Shown here in pieces: positions 9,389 through 30,321 of a DNA stretch of 30,404 bases. Every line of letters starts with the position of its first letter. Positions within the stretch are counted from its first letter, which is position 1. The translations under genes were made by a program, and so were the position numbers. A model generated the notes under the pieces. The model saw nothing but the letters and a program-made list of their open reading frames with translations, was not told where the DNA came from and made no database searches. Origin of the DNA: Punctularia strigosozonata HHB-11173 SS5 (Eukaryota; Basidiomycota; Agaricomycetes; Corticiales; Punctulariaceae); NCBI RefSeq assembly GCF_000264995.1, contig NW_006767441.1, positions 1 to 30,404 of the forward strand, written 5' to 3'.

Positions 9389-12300
9389 TCAACTTGTCGA
9401 CGACTGCGTCCTTGTGTTGGGGCGACGGCAACGCCCGATACCCATGCCAACTCGGACCAGAGTCTCCAACGACGCACGGCCGTTTACTAAGAGATCCTCG
9501 TCCCAATCGACGACTCCCTTCTCGAAGACGATGACGATCGTCGATCCGCCTACGAGCGTGGACATCAGCGAGGACGAGGAGGGTCGATACAGCTGGCCCC
9601 TACCGAAGGCAAAATACCCAAACTCATCTCCTCTTTTCACCTGCTGTCCTTCTTGCACGGTGGTGATGATACTACCGACCATCGTTGCCCCGACGCATAC
9701 CGCCATCACCTTACCAAACTGAGGGCTGTCGATGGGCACTACCTTGCGCGCATTCTCGCCATAAACGTCCAGCCCTGTTCGGATTGCCTGAGGCTATATA
9801 ATGCATGACGTGAATAACGATGGTTGGTGTCATCGGCAACTTTCTGCTCTGCTCACATTGACAGTATGATACTCTCCGGCAATATAGCTCATGGCTCCGA
9901 TAACACCGTCGACGGGAGAGTGGAAGCGGTGATAATCTTGAGGGGCAAGGCGGAAGATGGCGAGGGCACCTCCAGCGTATCTCTCGGCCAAGTTGCGATA
10001 TCCAGGACCGAAGAGCCGCCCTACGGTAAATTCCCGCCCCTTGATCCATAACCGAGTGGCCTCCGACACGGTCTCGAATGTCATCAAACGACAATCGGCG
10101 CAGCTGACCAAGCGTGTAGGATCGTTCGGGCTCTCGACGGGTCGCGAACCTGGCTTCAGCCGACGATAGAAGAACTGGTTGAATGTCCCTAAGCCGGTGT
10201 TACCAGCATGCCGACAGGACGGGTGGGGAAGGGGCTCACGATATGATTCGACGGGATCCAGAAATTCTTCCGTGTTGAGTCGGTGGAATCGGATGAACGG
10301 GATTATGTCTCGAGCCGACTCCGGCGAGTCAAACTTGATGCCTTGCTTGATCGTCATTGACTTCAGGAGCCTGCGAGCTACAGAACTTCAGAATGTGGGC
10401 CACAAGAACGATGGATCACACTTACCTCTGGCTCCTTCCATGGTACTCTTGGCACCCTGCGACAAACGTCAGCCTTGCGTGGATGGTATGCATGCTACTG
10501 ACCTTATAGAGTAGCCGTATGCCAAGACGAACGTAAACTTGCATTTTTTCTTCCTCCAACTGGCCAGTAAGACGATTTTGCACGATGATGTTCGCTGAGT
10601 TCTGGGTAGGGAGTTTAAGGATCGGTTCCAGCGACTCATGATGCACTCACCGCTCCCAACTGGTAAGCTCCTCTGGAGACCTTGCCGACTAGTTTCGTAT
10701 ACCATTTTCTCTGGGCTTGACTCGGGGTCACGAAGTTGCCGACCATGATTCGGTCCACGCGATCCCAGTCTTGGCTGGCGCATATCGCAAGGTGTGTGAT
10801 GATATCCACCTCCGCTTTCTTGCTCAAGCGCGGGCGATGGCATAACGGGCAGTTCTTGACGTTGATGACTCGTTCGAAGATCGGGGAGGGGGGGCCCTGC
10901 TGAAGAGGATGCGATATCGATGTGCCGGGTGTCGTTGAAGGAGAGGGGTCGTAGTCAGCCTCCGATCCTGACGAATACCCTTCCTGGCGTAACAATCTCC
11001 TGGAAGGAGGCGATAAAACACTAAGATCCGCACTAGCCCTCCTCCGATCCTTGATATTTTCGCGACGCCCGTTCAGCGCGGGGTCACCCAGTACCATCTC
11101 ACTAGGTTCCGTTGGGAATGTTTGAACCAGGACTGGGGACTGAGCGCTGGGGTCGACGGATGGCCCAATCCCGTCTTCACCGAGGTTTCCAGGAGGACCA
11201 GCGAAGCTCATCTTATCAAGAGCCAGACTGAGCCCAAGGCCATCAACCGCTCCTGGTATCGTCGGCGTGACAAATCCAGTGTCAGGAGGGCGGTAATCTG
11301 CCGAGTCTACCCTTTCGCGCTCTTCCTCGGGGCGACGCAACTCGTCCTCGAGACATTGCACAGCCTCGGTAATGGTGAGCTCGTCCCTGGCGGGCGATTT
11401 CCCATGCGAGGCAAAGAACGAGTCCACGGTGGAGGCCGACAGCGTTGAGCCAAGCGAATCCAGCATGGACGTCAATTCCAGTCGGGATATTGTATCGGTG
11501 TCGTCGGCATCATATTGTTTGAGGTATTTGCGCCAGAACTGCTGCCTCAGTGCATCATATGCCTGATACTTGGCCCTGATGTGGACGTGAGCTGTTCGAT
11601 GCATTTCGTTCATGTGAAAAAGGGACGAACCGGAAGGATAAAGTGGGGTTATGCTTGGCTTCCCAAACGGCTTCCTTCTCGGTCTTCAATCGCAAGTTGA
11701 ATTCCTTTCCCCGCGCCACACGACTCTTCTCGAGCTCCTCCGCATCGTAAAGCCCAGTCAGCTCGTCCTTTTTGGGAGTATCTCCGAGTAGCTCGGAGAC
11801 GTTGAATTGGACTTCGCCCACGTAGTCGTTGGAGGTGAGCTTATCCCAGTCCAATACCGTGAGTTGCACGTTGAAGTTCGTTTCGTAACGGCGAACGTGG
11901 AACAAAAGTTTCTCGTCCCAGACAGGATTTAGAGAGTGTCGGATTACGCGAGTGCGGAACACCTTCTTGCCGAATGATATGACCACGAAAGGGTCCATGT
12001 CCCATCCAGTCCGCGTTACTGCCAAGCGATGAGAGGAGAGTACGAGCTGTAATGATGGATGTGCTCACTGTTCTTAAGGCGAGGTAGATCGGTCGCGCCC
12101 TGTATATCGAGCGTGACAATGCCCACTATATCGTTGGCCGCCTCGAAATTGTAGGTGCCCTTCGCCCTCGTGCGCTTGCCCTTCCGCCGCCCTACGACTC
12201 TGCCGCTGGCTGCAACCACATCCACGCTCTTCAGGGACCGATTGGTGAAACCACGCATGCGCAATCCTGAAGGCCGGCGTTGCCCCGTAGCGTGAGACGG

Positions 12301-14176: not shown

Positions 14177-17100
14177 TCAATCTCGTCCCGATGGCGGGTG
14201 CAGAGCATTCCGTAATACTGTCTCCAAATCTGCGATGACGTTCAGATATCGCTAATCGCATTGGAGTGCGATCGTAGGGCGTACCTGCGAGGCGAAGCGG
14301 CTTGGGCATGAAAAACTCCATACCAGCGTTCCGACACTGCTCTTCGCTCTCGGACGTTACGTTGGCCGTGAGCGCAACGATAGGTAGGTGACGTTTGAGC
14401 GTGCCCGCTACTTCCATTTCTCGGATCCTGCGTGTGGCATCGAAGCCGTCCATGACTGCCAACCGACGTCAACGTTTATATCATCTCAGAGTGGTATGTC
14501 TTACCTGGCATCTAGAAGGGAAAACGTTATGAGGCGCGATCGAACAAACGTCGTGACCCACGTACCTGACAGTCCATGAAGCAGCAGTCTACGGTTTCCT
14601 CCGCGACCGTATCTACCGCCTGCTGTCCGTCGTTGGCAGTGATGACATCATAGCCAAGGCTTTCGAGTAGCTTTTTGCCCAATCGCTGGTTTATCTGTCG
14701 AATGGTAAGTTGAGCGTTCGCTGATCAAAAATCCTGAGCCCTTACCAAGTTGTCCTCGACCAGGAGCACTTTTTTCTTGATCTCATCCGGAGCGATCACC
14801 TCATTGGTGCGACGTCCCTCATCGAGTATAGCATCTGACGTTGGAGGCATGATCGCGCCACCAGCGCCAGTACTCGCCATCGGTAGCCGCTCCCCGGCCA
14901 CCATGTCGACAGTTGTGGTCGCAAAGCGCAGCTTCGGGGGATCCGCCAGAGCGTACTTAAGCTTGTTCCAATGGCACCCCGTGCCCTCCGAATCTTCGTC
15001 TTCGCATCGTCGGAGTAGCTCGATGACTCGATTTGCGACAACAGGCCGCTTGACGAGCAGGACATTCTTTGCCTCGGAAAGTGCAGGTTCCAGCGCGGCC
15101 AACTCGTCGGCAGTTGAATGCACGACGCAGACGAGCGGGGGACTTGACCCGTTGGGAGCGCTTTTCGTCCTCGATGGGCCCGATGTCAAGACCAACAGGT
15201 CGCGAACAGCCTGCGAGCGCATCATGGCGATATCCGTCCATATGATGTCTGCATTGCCTCGGACATCGTCAGCCGAGTCGGTTTTGTGCACCACACGAGT
15301 ATCGAATCCGTGTTCGCTCCATATTTCCTCGAATAGGTCAGCGGTACGTGAGTGACTGCAGACGACGTGTAGCCTTCGCAGTCGCTGTTTTCCCCTCGAT
15401 TGATTGGGAACAGCCCCCGCGCCAGGTTGTTCGTCACCCAGCGGAACCTTGACCGGCATCTTGACGACGAATACGCTTCCGCCATCCCGATCTTCACCGG
15501 CGACCTCGCTGTGCACCTCGATGGTCCCGCCCATCCGCTGGACGAGATGCTTGACGATGCTCAGCCCCAATCCGGCGCCCTGATGCGGTCGAGTCAAAGA
15601 GCTGTCGGCCTGGCGGAAGGGCTCGAATATGACGTCGATGTACTCCGGCGAGATGCCACAGCCGGTGTCACGGATAGTCGCGACCAATGTTCGAGTAGAA
15701 CCATCTTGCGCTCCGGAGGGATCTACGTGGAAGGCTGCATAGATGAACCCATCCTGAGTGAACTTTTGAGCATTGGACAAAAGCTGAAGACAGAATTATC
15801 AGTCGGGGATCAATATTGCAGGCGACTAAGCTTACGTTCGTGAGCACCTGCATATGCCAACTCATGAGACTGAATGGTCAAGCACAATACATGGAGGCTT
15901 ACCCGCAACGCGTAGGTTTCATCAAGATATACTTCTTTCGGCATATTAGGCGCAACCGAGACAATCAATTCGACGGTATCCTGACATCCCACTTCGGAGA
16001 TCCGCGCAACGCCTTCAAGCATCTGGCGAGTATCAACGAGGACTGGACGCGCATCCGACTCTACGTTGGCCCGGTCCAACTAGGGCGGCGGTCATGAGCG
16101 CATCTGTGGAGAAATCGGATGGACGTACCTTGTTGAAATCTGTACAAGCTCCGTCAGTTGCTTGAAAGGCAGAGCAGGTTGGTCTAACATACCGAGTACA
16201 TTGCCGGCTATGACATTGATAGCATGGCATGCTTGCTGGATGCTCGTTACGTAAAGCTGCTGATCGGTGGACAACGGTGTCCGCGCAAGCAATTCGGCGT
16301 ATCCGTTGACTGTGTGCAACGGGGTCCGTATCTTGTTTCAGGGATCAGCCCCCGATCTGGCATAGCATTCGACGGAAAGATGAACCGACCTCATGACTAG
16401 CCACGCTGATGAATTGTAATCTAAGGGCATTTGCGCGATCAGCCGCTTCCTTCTCCGCCATGATGCGCCAGAGCCGACGCCTGGTTAGGATAGCTTCAGC
16501 CATCCTATTCCGAGCGAGTGTAGCGGAGTTGGCTATGAAAGTGCGATGTTGAACAAAGAGCTATCGTGCAATGCGCTTCACTGCCGCTCACCAAGAGCTG
16601 CGTTAGCGACGACTAGAACTGCTACTGCGACGGAGACGATAGACATGGGCAGGAATCGTGGATACCCTGCATGCGGGTCCGGTGCTGCCGTGCTGTGGAA
16701 CTTGGCAGCCGCCATACCTATTATGGAACAAGTGAAAACCAGTGACGGCGGAACAGAGAGATGAAAATACCAGTATAGTGCATGCCACATACGCCGGCGG
16801 CGGCGATGGCGCTCACTACCATTTGGCGCACAAGGTGCGTCTCCATTTGATACATCGCGACTGTCCCGAGAATGCAGACAACGAAGGCAATAAGTGACTG
16901 AATAGAGGAGTACAGTCAGCAACGTGGGGCAGGGAAAGGGCGAAAAAGAATACCGAGAGTAAGACGAGGGCGATATTCCACTCTATCCAGCCATCGGATA
17001 CTTGCATCGCCAGCATGCCTTGAGAAGGTTCAACGTTCCGTCATTGGGGCCAAAGCAGCAACACACTTACCGCAATAGTGCATTCCGACTATTCCCGCGC

Positions 17101-18667
17101 TCCACATGGCTGCGCGCACGTATACGGCGACGCTGAGCGTTTCCCAATGCTCAATCACCCACCGCCTCCACGGAATGACTAGATCTTTGGAGCTAAACTT
17201 TCGTCGCTTTTTGGCAACGACTGATCGTGCGCTTGCACCTGAACGAAGGGCGTGTCGACCTGTTCGAGCCGGGGGGGTCGCTGGGTTCACTGCGGTATGC
17301 ATCGTACTTGGTGTTTCTGCATTAGACGGCACAGGTATCCTCCCTCCTTCCCAGAATGTGCGACTGGCACCAGGAGATGTGGCAGCCGATGCAGGTGCCG
17401 ATGCAGGTGCCGATGTCTGTACGGTTTGTAGCAGTCAGGCCCCGGTACACCGACGCAACGGGACACTGCACGATTTCTCACCTCACTTCCTGATATCGTC
17501 AGTCCGTCGGAATCCGTCCGACTCATAGGGTAGTGCCGGCCCAAGCCACGTCCCCGCGAAGATGACGAACCCCTGCTACCTGATCCAGAACCGGAACCCG
17601 AGCTCGGTGCGGGAGACCTCGACGAGCCCGCCAGCCTGTGAATCACTGTCTTAAATAGCCCCCGACCTCGTCCGTAACGAGATTTGCTTGAGGGGGGCGA
17701 CAGCTTGGAATCAAGCCGCGATCGAGGAGTTCGCTCTCCCGAAGGTGCCGACACCGACGAACCAGGTATTCCAGTGGGGCGTCGCTCGAGAAAAACTCGA
17801 GGAGGATCTCGGCGGCGAGCGGATGGGCCTGGCGTTGGCTCACGTCGATGTGATGGCAAGCTTCGAGTATCGTTTTGCTCCGCAACTTCTGCTTCCTCGC
17901 CCCGTCCTTCCTCCTCGTCCCGTTCGTCATCATCTTCCTCTTCCTCATCCTCCATCAGATCCGTCAGCCCCGAATCTTCGCTTGAGTCTTCCGCTGCCTC
18001 GCTCTCGCCTTCGGACATCGGGAGAACGCTGGGACCGAGGACAGGATCGGCCGATTTGCCATGTGCGTGCCATTCCTGATTTCTTTCCGTCCCACTCGCG
18101 TCTTGAGCAGCCTCCTCAGTCTCCACGGTTGCAAACTCTCTCTCCGACTCTGACAAGAAGGGCTGAGCTTCTGCGTCTCTCCTGCGTCGTTGGCTGCCCA
18201 ATAGTCTCTGCCACCACGACCGTCTCCCGCTTCTTCGGTATCGCCTAGCAGCTATGAGGCTGCATAGCCAGCTTCGCTTGTTGTGTTTCGCATACGCAAC
18301 GAGGAATGGCCAGCCTATGCCGATGGAGGTGAAACCAACAGCCACGAGGGCAGAAGCCACCGTCAGAGGGAGCGAGAATTGGACGGGCACTTGCAGGTTC
18401 AAGGCGAGCATGCCCACTACACGCGCATAGTAAGAGGGGCGTAAAACACGAGACAACTGAGTGATACGACGTACGGAAATGCATGGACCATATACTGCAG
18501 AATCCGAAGGCGGCGCCTGCCATGGCAGCCCAGAGGAGCGCCTGGGATGGAGAGGATGTGTACTTGGCATGGACGATGAGTTGCGTGCCAGTGTAGGCGC
18601 CGAGCCAGGAGATGCAGTAGGAGAGAACGACGAGGAGGGGGGACCAGGTGGGGGTCAAGGTGTCCAT
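14177..18667 (-). CDS. Hybrid histidine kinase with N-terminal MHYT membrane sensor
   Basis: Sixteen exons: 18667-18475, 18416-17482, 17416-17071, 17018-16954, 16897-16771, 16717-16592, 16532-16390, 16331-16193, 16139-16129 (11 nt), 16079-15903, 15847-15836 (12 nt), 15783-14746, 14694-14566, 14511-14505 (7 nt), 14455-14285 and 14229-14177; 1,223 residues. About eight membrane segments carry three MHYT-type motifs: WSMHFLGM (His63), GMHYCGM (His489) and GMHYTGM (His553), a module proposed to sense diatomic gases through metal. A disordered loop of about 350 residues with acidic and Ser/Gly/Arg repeats lies between the first and second motifs. The kinase core follows: H-box SVASHEIRTPLH with His644, N-box NAQKFTQDG (Asn762), DTGCGIS and GAGLGLSIVK. 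A C-terminal receiver has VLLVEDN, phospho-acceptor Asp1145 and Lys1201 (MPKPLRL). All catalytic residues are kept, so it should autophosphorylate and relay to an HPt protein. Every splice join is in frame. Confidence 0.94.
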
Positions 18668-24724: not shown

Positions 24725-26191
24725 ATGCCTCCTCAAAGGCGCGGACGTCAACGGAATGCACCTACCCCACCAGCTGCGGCTCAAAATAACTCGTATGTTC
24801 CTCCGGGACGCAACGTACCGGACCTATTGAAGCCGCTAGGTGTTCTGTACAACGAGGAGATGTTTTGGCGAGACCACTACGACTGGTTGAAGGAAAAGGG
24901 CTACGAACTGAGGTCTAGATTCTCTCCTAACTGGGTGCCGTCATGGTGGGGCACGAACGAATATTGGAAAAGCAAAGAGGACGCCCAGATGTCACCGGCA
25001 AGTCACCAAGCATATACTCGTCGTTCATTGGATTCTCATTATTTTCCTTAGCGGACGTATCTCGCTGATGCGACTCGCTTGTCTGACGGTGCCCACGTTG
25101 TCATCAAGTTGATTTATCAGCCGGATCATCCGCACGAAGTATCGATGTCCCGTCTCATCGGCATGGGTCCTACGGCGTGCGATTATTGCGTTCCTGTCTA
25201 CGATGTGCTTCATGTACCAGAGGAGGAGGACAGTTATCTCTTGGTTATGCCTATCCTACGCGATTTCGACGATCCTCCTTTTGATACGGTTGGCGAAGCT
25301 CTGGAGTGTATCCGTCAGATATTCAGGGTTTGTTTGTTCCCTTTCGCACCTATCTCTGTCTGAAACATATCTCAGGGTCTCCTTTCCATGCACGAAAAAC
25401 ATATAGCGCATCGGTGCGTCGGCACTGGTAGAGTCCTGTTGTTACTAACACGTGCTCAGGGACTGCCACGGACGCAATATTATGCTTGACCCTCGACCAA
25501 TGTATCCGGATTCGTTCAATTTCGCGAATCCTCAGAGGCGCAGGGACTATTCGGCCCCGTTGGAGCATCTTTATACCCGTACTCAGCGCCCCACGCGATA
25601 CTATCTCATAGACTTCGGCAACGCAAAACTCTATGACCCGTCGATGGGACCACCTCTGGATGTCCCTTTCCAGGGTGGGGACAAGACTCTTCCAGAGTTC
25701 AATGATTACGTTGGTCCCTCCAACCCATTCGCTGCCGACGTATATTACATTGGCAATTGGGTTAGGCAAAGTTTCATGGATGTTCGTCGCCTCTTCGGAT
25801 TCTTGTCGATGAAACTGAAAACTTCCACCAGAGGTACCGCGGCTTTGGCTTCCTGAAGCCGCTCGTAGATCGCATGGTTCGCCGTAGACCAGACGACAGG
25901 CCGTCTATCCACCAGGCCGTGGCTCACTTGGACGATATCCTCAGCGAAATCCCCACTCGACGTTTGCGGTCACGCGTCATCCTCAAGTGGGAAGTCCCTC
26001 TCTTTGCTCTCGGGACGATCTACCATCATTGGCGACGACGAATCACTTTCATGCGTCTCCATGTTCCAGCCCTTCCGCGGGTAGAGGAAAGTCATGCGTC
26101 AAACAAACCGTCGTCCATTACACCGGAGGCTATACCCCTCCCTCCTAGCCCGCCAGCTTCACAATCCTCCCGACCAACTTCGCCATCTTGA
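24725..26191 (+). CDS. Fungal protein kinase-like protein (HRDC/DFG type)
   Basis: Five exons: 24725-24997, 25052-25327, 25376-25413, 25460-25781 and 25832-26191; 422 residues. The N-terminal part has WVPSWWGTNEYWKS and TYLADATRLSDGAHVVIK (Lys110 as the likely ATP-contacting lysine). The catalytic loop is AHRDCHGRNIM (Asp197, Asn202), the metal motif IDFGNAK (Asp247), and GGDKTLPEF plus NPFAADVYYIGNWVR follow, the signature of a kinase-like family abundant in agaricomycetes. A canonical glycine-rich loop is not visible. The C-terminus is Ser/Pro rich. The first intron begins with GCAAGT, a GC-AG intron; the frame requires it and no phase-correct GT alternative is nearby. The remaining introns are GT-AG. 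Catalytic residues are present, so activity is possible; the substrate is unknown. Confidence 0.88.
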
Positions 26192-26566: not shown

Positions 26567-29206
26567 TCAATCGCTGATTTCGGCAAGCAGCTCGTCATCG
26601 TCCAACAGAGCGTCGATAAATATCTGACGAACATCGGCATGTGAAAGAAAGCATCAGAATAAGGCTCACAGAAGGGTCATCTTCAACGGTGGTCGAATAA
26701 GTGACGGTCTGACTTGTGTCCAACGTTGTACGCCCTCGTTGCAGCAACCTATTTGCTGCTTTGGAAGAATTGGATTTGCGCATCATCGCGGCGGGGAAAA
26801 AGCCGTACCCGAGGGGTCCGAGAAGTCTACACCGTTCATGTCCGCCCTCAATTGTTTCAGTGCAGCTTCATCGTCATCGCCGTCAACGGTGGTTATTCTT
26901 GAATGAGATAAAACGGATACTGCCAGTGAAATGGAGTGAATCGCTTTGTATAGAGCGCAGCTATACATCACATATCTCGGCAGCAATGGTATGGACGCAC
27001 CGAAAACGTCCGAGGAGACACGCGATTTTTCTACCGCTACTCTCAGTTCATCCCAGTCCGGGTCCGATACTGGAGGCCGCATAGCACCAAGGTTAGCTTG
27101 TTTATCGGCGGCCTCGTTGCCCTCAATATTGGCGTGGCCCTGTACACATTGCAACTCAACCTGATTGTCAAGGGTAAGCAATCACGACGCAGCTGTACGC
27201 ATACTACCATGACCTGCTGTCCAGCGTCCCGTCGGGCTCGCAATAAGGCGGACAAATATCGAATCACTGGCTTGTTCTTCACGGGGCTTTCGATACTGGA
27301 TATCCACCCGTTGCTTTCCCATTTGGGCATCCAATCGTTGACACCTGGTACGGCGAGTTGAATTTTGTCAAGGGCCTAACTCTGGTCACACACAGTTGAT
27401 AGAATATTCTGAGTCGGTCTTGATGAGCAACGGCGCCGTATTGAAAGGAGTTTCTTCCAGGATACGTATAATGGCCTGGGGCGTCACGAAGCCGAGCGTC
27501 AGTCACTTTCGGGAAACGGGTCCAGCGTCCAACGCTACTCACTATGAGTTCTGCACGAATGTTGGTTTGGGCACCGGGACAGCGCTCAGCGAGGTTTCTA
27601 CGCGACCGGTGTTAAGCCACGAGGGATACGTAATAACGCAGCATACCGAGGGTCTTCCGGGCCCCACCATACTCCAATCCCGGCAACAGATCCAGGATTC
27701 CCGTTGCCCGTGCACGCGCCATCGCAGTACACGACGTCTGCAGTGGGGACAAGTGCACTATTTGAGGCAGGCGTCAAAGATATGTTGACTTGCGAAAACC
27801 CGGCCGAAGGGCTTGAGTCCGATTCGGGCGGACCGCGAAGATTAGCCAACCTTGACTGGATGCTTGTACCAGTCGACGTCCCTGAGTTGGTCTCAGCTCT
27901 GGTTTGCTCGAGCGGTAGAGATAGGGGATTTGCAGAAGTGGATACGACCGCATCCGGGATAGACAGATGGTTCTCATCCCTTGCAACTGCGGTCACTGTT
28001 GATACTGCCGTGTCCTGGATCGCTCTGCCATCTTCAACGTCCACTAGCTCCACGTCGAGAGATGTTGATTCGTACTCGATTTCAAGCGCTACTCTCTTCG
28101 CATCCCAGTCTTCTTCGGGTAGCTCAGGAAGCAAGGCTCCGAGGTTCGCTTCAGCATCCGCGCCCTCGTTGCCAGCGATGCCTGCATGACCTTTCACCCA
28201 TTGGATCTGGACCTAAAGGCAATGACAACACCGTGAGCAGCCTGCTCATCGTCGCTGACATAGAGCGCACCTTCTGTCCAGCCTTGCCCCTTACGGCAAG
28301 AAGCGCGAGGATGTATCTGATCACTGCTTGATTCCTGACCGATTCCCCCTTCGAATTTTTCCAACCGTTCCTCTGCCATCCGGGTAACCATTTATGCAGA
28401 CCTGTCTCAGACCGGGTTGAGAAGAGATTAGTTAGCTGGGGAAAGGAACGCCCACAATCCCTCGAGTAAGCCGAGTCTGATTTGATGAGCAACGGCTTCT
28501 TGCTGATTGGTGTGTTCTCGAGAACGCGGGCAATTGCCTTCGGGACAGGTCCACACAGTCACGAAGCAGCATTAGGAATAAGACTCACAATCAACTCGGC
28601 GCGATTATTGGTCTGGTTGCCGGGACATCTTTCCGCGATGTTTCTGAAACAGCGAGATCATGTGAGCACTTCAGATATATGAGTGTCGGCGAGAGCAAAT
28701 ACCTGGGATCCTGGTGACCCCACCAAACCCCGATACCCGCATAGCTTCCCTTCTGTCCGTTTCCCTTGCATGCACCATCACAGAAGACGACATCCCACCC
28801 AGTTTCGTCTTCAATCTGTTCGTCTCGGTGTCTTGAGGAACTTTGGCCTGACAGGGGTACGGAGGATCCTGCGGCAGGACTGGCCCTCGAGGACGAGCGA
28901 GAAGAGCGATGGTACGGCGCCGCGCGTTGAGGTGGCGGGTTCGAAACGGGTTCAATTTTTGGTCCTATCATTGACGCAGGCCCACCATTTGCGCGATACC
29001 ATTCTTCAGCCTCTGCCGCGTTGTACAACTTTTTGTATCTCGCGCCGGGCCATCCTTTCACTTGCTCCTCCGCTTCCGTCCTGGGATCGTTTTCAGTGAA
29101 CCACAGTCGGGGAATGGCGACCGGAAACTTACCATGCCGTGTATATCCCTGGGTTCCTCCCTCTTGGTACCGCATAGAATGCCTGCTTTCCCGAGGCTTT
29201 TGGCAT
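26567..29206 (-). CDS. RNase H1-type protein with hybrid-binding domain and two RNase H catalytic domains
   Basis: Thirteen exons: 29206-29133, 29080-28703, 28643-28589, 28537-28456, 28401-28271, 28212-27647, 27597-27543, 27475-27394, 27344-27214, 27160-27001, 26919-26809, 26758-26670 and 26623-26567; 656 residues. Residues 6-60 form the hybrid-binding domain (AFYAVPRGRNPGIYTAW, GWPGARYKKL, AEAEEWYR). RNase H domain 1 (about 120-265) keeps Asp126 (FCDGAC), Glu167 (NRAELI), Asp190 (KSDSAYS), His249 (KGHAG) and Asp259. Domain 2 (about 398-545) keeps Asp404 (YCDGAC), Glu445 (IRAELI), Asp468 (KTDSEYS), His527 (QGHAN) and Asp537. A 130-residue Ser/Thr-rich linker in the single 566-nt exon joins them. 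The enzyme should cut RNA in RNA:DNA hybrids; the short N-terminus gives no clear mitochondrial signal. Exons 10-13 (acidic tail ending LLDDDELLAEISD) are less certain: the 27000-26920 intron is 81 nt, so skipping it also keeps frame. Confidence 0.92.
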
Positions 29207-30321
29207 GAAATATTTGCCGCGATTGGACGGGTAGCGCTGGAACTTCAATAGAGAGCCAACAAGCGTCCCGTATACCCCAGTCACAAGTCTGCCCTTGGTA
29301 TCCCTGTAGGCAATCTCAGTAGATCCGTGCGATGTCCAAGTAGCGATACGGAATCGCAGAGGCCTGGCAGATCTGGGTATGTAAGCCAGGATGGTGTCAG
29401 TATAGCTGTGCGTTCTATTGAGTCTGTAGTATTCGACGCGCTTTGACGGAAGGAAGCCACGCACACGTGATTTGGCCACGTGAGATTGACAAGACAACAA
29501 TGAAGGCGATTTACTGATGTTTGAACTCCAAGCTTGACCACACAACACGAAAGGTTCTTGAGAAGGCCACGTCTAAGATATATGTAACTATGACCTTCAC
29601 GAACTACTGCCCTGATGTTCCACCACCAAGTCGCCCTTCGTGCACATCGAAGTTGCGTTGCGCTTTATGTTACGTCAAGCTGTCCTGTTTGCACCCTGTT
29701 TGGCGGCACCCACATCAATACGTACAACGTTCACGTTCAAGTCCCCTCGCAATGTTACAGCAAACCGCAAGCCCAAGATAGCATTCACTCATCCTCACTC
29801 CCTATCGTCAAGCGATCTCCCACCCGTGCAACGCGACACATACTCTTGGGCGACTTCCTATGTTTCTTCTACACGTGTGGATAAGGAGAGCTAGCTTTGT
29901 CTCCGTGAAGATATGCAGCAGAGATTATCTCCCAAGGACTGGTTGCGGCATCAACCACGCCCAGAGTATCGCATCACCAACTAAGTTGGGATTTGTTTCT
30001 GCACGGGAATTGTCAGGGCACGGCTCCCACACTCGCCTCATGTCTCATTGTTCTCCTTTTCTGCTTCCGCTTCTGTCCCATTTCGTTCATTTCCCCTAAT
30101 ACTTCCGTCTCCCTATTCGGTCGCGCTCTCCCGCGCCCTCCTAGGCTTCCCGCGCCCTCCTTTTGGCATCTCCCCTATTTCGTTCCGTCGCTCGGCGCTC
30201 CTAGGGCCTCCGCACTCGCCCGGCCTTCCTAGGCCGGTCCACCGGTCACGTGTCGGGCACCCGAGGACCCTCCCCTTCTCTCATTGGACCATCTTTCGTT
30301 GCGTTGATGGATTACTCATCT

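Follow-up and report, generated by a model that had tools for sequence, protein, structure and literature searches.

A Punctularia strigosozonata RNase H1 gene predicted to encode one hybrid-binding domain and two catalytic domains

The locus and its gene model

The window analysed here is the first 30,404 nucleotides of contig NW_006767441.1 (C9 in our numbering) of Punctularia strigosozonata HHB-11173 SS5 (assembly GCF_000264995.1), read on the forward strand. It opens with irregular AACCCT telomeric repeats (positions 1-135), after which a G+C-rich subtelomeric array, repeating about every 41 bases, extends to position 723. Further in, the minus strand holds pieces of a C2-domain phosphatidylserine decarboxylase (9830-12064; PF02666 at 100.2 bits, C2 at 71 bits) and, within 14725-18654, two further domains: PF02518 (histidine-kinase ATPase) at 14725-15795 and PF03707 (MHYT) in the frame 17287-18654. 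A plus-strand frame of 141 residues (25766-26191) stands 3' to 3' with the RNase H1 gene described below; its start resembles the end of a protein kinase domain.

The RNase H1 gene lies 27-29 kb inside the contig, counted from the telomeric start, and runs from 29206 to 26567 on the minus strand. Spliced by hand, the model has 13 exons that add up to a 1971-nt coding frame, open throughout and ending in TGA, for a protein of 656 residues. All 12 introns are short (46-81 nt) and bounded by GT..AG. The encoded order is a hybrid-binding domain (HBD), RNase H copy 1, a linker, RNase H copy 2 and a C-terminal tail, and an earlier note on this DNA, made from its letters alone, had the coordinates, domain order and residues right.

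The HBD (residues 10-52, 28999..29179) is interrupted by a 52-nt intron (29081..29132), and both of its exon pieces were recovered when the genome was searched with PF01693. Exon 2 (378 nt, 28703..29080) carries the end of the HBD, linker 1 (68 residues, 53-120) and, with Asp126, the opening strands of RNase H copy 1. The remainder of copy 1 is spread over exon 3 (55 nt, 28589..28643), which bears Glu167, exon 4 (82 nt, 28456..28537), which bears Asp190, exon 5 (131 nt, 28271..28401), which encodes the protrusion, and the beginning of exon 6. At 566 nt (27647..28212), exon 6 supplies the end of copy 1 with His249 and Asp259, the whole of linker 2 (132 residues, 396 nt) and the start of copy 2 with Asp404. 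Beyond the 49-nt intron 6 (27598..27646), copy 2 continues through exon 7 (55 nt, 27543..27597; Glu445), exon 8 (82 nt, 27394..27475; Asp468), exon 9 (131 nt, 27214..27344; protrusion) and exon 10 (160 nt, 27001..27160), which holds His527, Asp537 and a post-domain stretch, DWD..RVA.E. The tail past this stretch is assigned to exons 11-13 (26567..26919), whose limits are set by the open frame and GT..AG signals alone, not by homology.

Upstream of the first Met, the minus strand stays open for 122 codons (29207-29572) and contains no further Met. The protein could be longer at its N terminus, for example for mitochondrial import, if translation begins at a non-ATG codon or an upstream exon exists.

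Domains and active sites

In the spliced protein, Pfam finds a single Cauli_VI/HBD stretch (PF01693, E 9.9e-16, 58.2 bits), which also matches the yeast and human HBD structures in the PDB (1qhk and 3bsu), so that the protein has the N-terminal hybrid-binding domain of eukaryotic RNase H1. The RNase_H family is found in two stretches, with E-values of 1.6e-61 for the whole protein, 2e-32 for copy 1 alone and 2.8e-29 for copy 2 alone. The scores of 112.7 bits (copy 1) and 102.5 bits (copy 2) stand against a curated cut-off of 25.8 and place both copies among type 1 RNases H, and for both the top PDB matches are human RNase H1. Where the usual one-headed enzyme has a single catalytic domain, this frame holds two complete ones. 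A profile built from both copies and the human sequence places them at residues 121-266 and 399-544; as this profile contains the sequences it scores, its limits are usable and its scores are not independent.

Copy 1 carries D126, E167, D190 and D259 with the loop histidine H249, and copy 2 carries D404, E445, D468 and D537 with H527. Both sets align with human D145, E186, D210, D274 and H264, in what we take to be the standard human numbering (used here for all human positions), position 210 reading Asn in the human sequence that was aligned. The proposal of one HBD followed by two RNase H folds, each with a full Asp-Glu-Asp-Asp set and the active-site-loop His, is therefore borne out by Pfam and by the alignment, and Asp126 and Asp404 had been correctly picked as catalytic residues.

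Conservation extends beyond the acidic residues. Both copies keep the residues aligned with human Cys148, Asn151, Thr181, Asn182, Trp221, Trp225 and Asn240, which presumably contact the substrate. At human Arg179, copy 1 has Asn and copy 2 has Ala; judged from the alignment, this position does not separate the copies into an active and an inactive one. Both catalytic domains are apparently competent for chemistry, as predicted from these residues.

Repeated exons

Exons 7, 8 and 9 repeat exons 3, 4 and 5 both in length (55, 82 and 131 nt) and in start and end phase (2-0, 0-1 and 1-0). The exon that follows the trio also starts in phase 0 in both copies, so that four intron positions are common to the two. 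The 3' border of exon 9 is the only uncertain one among the repeated exons. After CAGCAG the sequence reads GTCATGGTAGTATGC, which offers three donors: GTCATG, giving the 131-nt exon, GTAGTA, 6 nt further on, giving 137 nt, and GTATGC, 9 nt on, giving 140 nt. The following intron would measure 53, 47 or 44 nt, respectively, and all three choices keep the frame. The first leaves the two copies without a gap and is itself an unusual donor. An exact repeat of exon lengths and phases, as had been described, thus stands for lengths and phases in general, with the 131 nt of exon 9 depending on the choice of donor. The shared introns, together with the alignment of the copies given below, bear out the reading that a gene segment with introns was duplicated in tandem inside a single reading frame.

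One reading frame across both domains

Exon 6 is where the two domains are joined. In its coding frame it has neither a stop nor a Met; the two remaining forward frames contain 5 and 8 stops. Met occurs in the whole protein only at residues 1, 62, 480, 545 and 599, and Met480 comes only after Asp404, Glu445 and Asp468 of copy 2, three of its four acidic residues. Linker 2 stays open in only 43 of 10,000 dinucleotide shuffles of its 396 nt. Because exon 6 is open, Met is absent between residues 62 and 480, and the openness of the linker exceeds chance, a single protein is favoured, and the suggestion that this is a fusion and not two genes is supported by the sequence. On the plus strand, a 213-residue open frame (27548-28189) lies antisense to exon 6 and is probably a by-product of codon use.

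The competing account has two genes, or mainly two transcripts: an HBD-RNase H gene whose end lies in or just past exon 6, followed by an independent RNase H gene with one domain. It can draw on intron 6: if this intron is kept in the transcript, the frame 27598..28212 ends at a TAG at the 3' end of the intron, giving a one-headed product. A start for copy 2 from an out-of-frame ATG with extra splicing, or from a non-ATG codon, is also conceivable. The in-frame continuity of exon 6 across both domains, the lack of an in-frame Met at residues 63-479, the position of Met480 and the rarity of open shuffled linkers all speak against this account, and we regard it as very unlikely. Under the single-gene model, retention of intron 6 could yield a one-headed isoform that ends after copy 1 and the linker.

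Age of the duplication and selection on the two copies

A gapless alignment of the two copies has 101 identities in 164 residues (59% over 174 columns), a likeness that, on this alignment, is not due to chance. Their coding sequences differ at 186 of 492 nucleotides, distributed as 52, 34 and 100 differences among the 164 first, second and third codon positions. Four-fold sites are identical at 14 of 48, where shuffling expects 12.1 (standard deviation 2.9). The dN between the copies is 0.317, and dS was not computable (NG86 returned -1). The four pairs of matching introns show no likeness beyond that of shuffled sequences, with 219, 236, 185 and 175 of 300 shuffles reaching the observed score.

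Because four-fold silent sites and introns are at chance-level similarity, the duplication is old; the comparison of copy 1 with copy 2 that had been proposed as a means of dating it thus returns saturated silent sites and unalike introns. Set beside the 101 identical residues, these silent sites and introns indicate that both halves were kept by purifying selection on the protein.

These figures also bear on the possibility that the repeat is an assembly artefact, a collapsed or chimeric tandem copy. What such a reading has in its favour is the nearness of a telomeric contig end (27-29 kb away), a setting in which assembly can go wrong. With 186 of 492 nucleotides different and introns unlike one another, the copies cannot be two readings of one sequence, and an assembly-wide DNA search finds the stretch of the gene once. 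An artefact is hardly credible.

Each copy shares 58 identities with human RNase H1 over 149-residue segments, and by this crude measure neither copy appears to have evolved faster than the other. In a tree of 19 rows, the fork of copy 1, copy 2, the human sequence and sequences from the same genome remained multifurcating, with branches of 0.66 for copy 2 and 0.19 for copy 1. As that fork stayed open, the sisterhood of the copies is based on their identity and their shared introns.

Differences between the two halves

The copies diverge in charge and at several aligned positions. Over 150 residues the net charge is +7 in copy 1 and -4 in copy 2, and the 27-residue protrusion carries +3 in copy 1 (exon 5), 0 in copy 2 (exon 9) and +4 in the human enzyme. 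Human Lys226, Lys227 and Lys231 align with Gln, Arg and Lys in copy 1 as opposed to Glu, Ser and Ile in copy 2, and the counterpart of human Gln183 is Asn in copy 1 and Ile in copy 2.

The protrusion's basic loop is described as important for substrate binding in foamy-virus RNase H (PMC3443672), and weak activity is reported for two archaeal RNases HI that have no protrusion (PMC1950709). Since the protrusion helps to hold the hybrid, copy 2 would do the chemistry yet bind poorly when alone. The description of both copies as apparently active thus stands for chemistry, both catalytic sets being complete, and is weakened for binding, copy 2 being less positive and having Ile at Gln183. From these features we infer that copy 1 acts as the main nuclease, with copy 2 as a weaker second one on a tether; the substitutions in copy 2 may be compatible with activity or may do away with it.

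If they abolish it, copy 2 would no longer be a useful nuclease and would be retained as a structural, protein-binding or regulatory module, comparable to the tether domain of retroviruses. The net charge of -4, the neutral protrusion and the replacement of three lysines and Gln183 speak for such a module, and the retroviral dual RNase H provides a precedent for one copy decaying to a tether (PMC9040795). Against this, copy 2 retains all four acidic residues, the loop His and every one of the seven residues aligned with human Cys148 to Asn240 listed above, some of which a mere tether would be expected to shed; the retroviral tether described in PMC9040795 is degenerate. We consider loss of nuclease function in copy 2 possible but doubtful.

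Other RNase H genes in the assembly

Searched against the assembly, the copy 1 protein gave 23 matches, of which 10 are exons of the two-headed gene. Profile searches returned 16 matches for PF00075 and, at E up to 1, 20 for PF01693; as genome searches score exon by exon, these counts are lower bounds. Fifteen of the 16 PF00075 matches lie outside the window, 10 of them in open frames of at least 898 residues, which suggests that these 10 belong to retroelements. Pfam was run on four of the 15 and showed one zf-RVT just below its cut-off, one sub-threshold endonuclease and two cases of RNase_H alone. Two of the outside matches (on C5 and C18) hold an internal stop. One match (L013, G000:C2:423427-423837) places an RNase H domain in a frame of 344 residues, after an endonuclease match that stays below threshold, and is 40% identical to copy 1.

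When PF01693 and PF00075 positions were compared across the assembly, every HBD match outside the window stood at least 90 kb away from any PF00075 match. C15 carries a gene for the catalytic subunit of RNase H2, recognised by two exon matches to PF01351. By these searches, the two-headed gene looks like the only cellular RNase H1 in the assembly.

A cluster of six PF01693 matches lies on C6 (G000:C6:2020033-2025873, L032-L037), where the 201-residue frame of L032 holds two in tandem. No PF00075 match was found near it, and by its domain content the cluster represents an independent expansion of HBD proteins that lack RNase H.

Origin and proposed mode of action

The stretch DWD..RVA.E is common to both copies, and the duplicated unit accordingly begins ahead of the first catalytic strand and extends beyond this stretch. 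An unequal crossing-over could have linked the sequence that immediately follows the catalytic domain to the linker sequence that immediately precedes it. Exon 6 would then combine the last catalytic exon with the 5' portion of the first one, as the product of one unequal exchange in coding sequence.

Repeated exons and a composite long exon 6 would likewise result if two neighbouring paralogous RNase H1 genes had fused and the second had lost its HBD and start. A trace of a second HBD is missing, however, with Pfam reporting one Cauli_VI stretch in the whole protein, and we hold such a fusion to be unlikely. The protein is the same under gene fusion and internal duplication, and only the history differs.

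Our preferred reading, to which we assign a probability of roughly 60%, is that of an RNase H1 gene that underwent internal tandem duplication of its catalytic segment, with copy 1 as the main nuclease and copy 2 as a tethered second one. The HBD would hold the hybrid, and copy 1, with its basic protrusion and net charge of +7, would be the main cutter. Copy 2, on its 132-residue tether, could reach the same or a neighbouring hybrid and add cuts; binding poorly by itself, it would cut once anchored to the hybrid through the HBD and copy 1. The outcome would be more cuts per encounter, on R-loops, replication primers or mitochondrial hybrids. That a two-headed enzyme might cut a hybrid at two sites or bridge two strands, as the earlier note proposed, is speculation.

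Linker length bears on this mechanism. For disordered linkers, PMC6540235 gives a usual processive range of about 10-100 residues. The 132 residues of linker 2 exceed it, which would fit reaching a second place better than close stepping.

A more elaborate version adds a division of labour, in which a basic, tight-binding copy 1 and an acidic, weak-binding but catalytic copy 2 would form a multi-cut machine acting on one hybrid, with a one-headed isoform made through intron 6. The species would then depend on this two-headed form, its genome having yielded no other cellular RNase H1. We offer this version tentatively and rate it as improbable.

RNase H1 removes RNA stuck to DNA and serves as a model for how a binding domain and a linker govern the behaviour of a nuclease. 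One HBD combined with two differently charged, complete catalytic domains would let one ask what a second active site does to cutting rate, spacing and release. The gene further offers a clear example of a domain duplication whose history is preserved in repeated introns. Its importance would be lower if the layout is common in mushrooms and has gone unremarked, or if copy 2 is inactive.

Comparison with known systems

We searched collections of viral, bacterial, archaeal and phage sequences for relatives, a scope that is silent on prevalence in fungi. The bacterial and archaeal search gave 111 stretches and, from these, 100 relatives, of which the best 80 were kept. Bacterial RNase HI belongs to the same family, and a related RNase HI frame was present in all 80 fetched loci; two RNase H stretches in one frame were found in none of these best 80 of 100, the same profile finding two in the window protein. 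Viral contigs gave no pattern match with the whole protein; the two-copy alignment yielded 54 stretches with a pattern match, of which none was confirmed. Among phages, 323 places matched, spread over 323 records with one in each. A cellular RNase H1 with two complete catalytic domains did not turn up in our searches of open-access papers, which is weak evidence of absence.

Multi-RNase-H-like proteins are mainly retroelement polyproteins, according to PMC3985635. Dual RNases H of retroviruses, Odin elements and plant Athila/Tat elements resemble the present protein in having two RNase H domains per polypeptide; in these, however, the older domain is a degenerate tether within a reverse-transcriptase polyprotein (PMC9040795). 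In the window protein, by contrast, both catalytic sets are intact and an HBD is present. Neither a degenerate domain nor an adjoining reverse transcriptase was found: Pfam shows only RNase_H and Cauli_VI in this protein. A retroelement origin of the gene was considered and rejected, given the HBD, the 12 introns and the absence of a reverse transcriptase domain in Pfam.

Eukaryotic RNase H1 is the closest system (human RNASEH1; PDB 2qk9, 8swb and 6vrd), with an HBD followed by a type 1 RNase H domain and the same catalytic residues. It differs in having one catalytic domain instead of two, the second here with a neutral protrusion. That the ordinary eukaryotic enzyme has one catalytic domain, as had been stated, agrees with PMC7657459.

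Drosophila RNase H1 and budding yeast Rnh1 likewise add a nucleic-acid module to RNase H1 by a long linker, but there the HBD is doubled and the catalytic domain single, the reverse of the arrangement here (PMC7657459). In Drosophila, the second HBD comes with a 115-residue linker and raises turnover; it is proposed to aid processivity, with linker length as an alternative cause (PMC7657459). By analogy, the logic of extra modules tethered by long linkers in the window protein resembles that of Drosophila RNase H1 (PMC7657459). RNase H1 with two HBDs is thus already known, as are retroelement dual RNases H with one decayed domain (PMC9040795). What appears to be new is an RNase H1 predicted to have one HBD and two complete catalytic domains, a familiar enzyme in a new arrangement.
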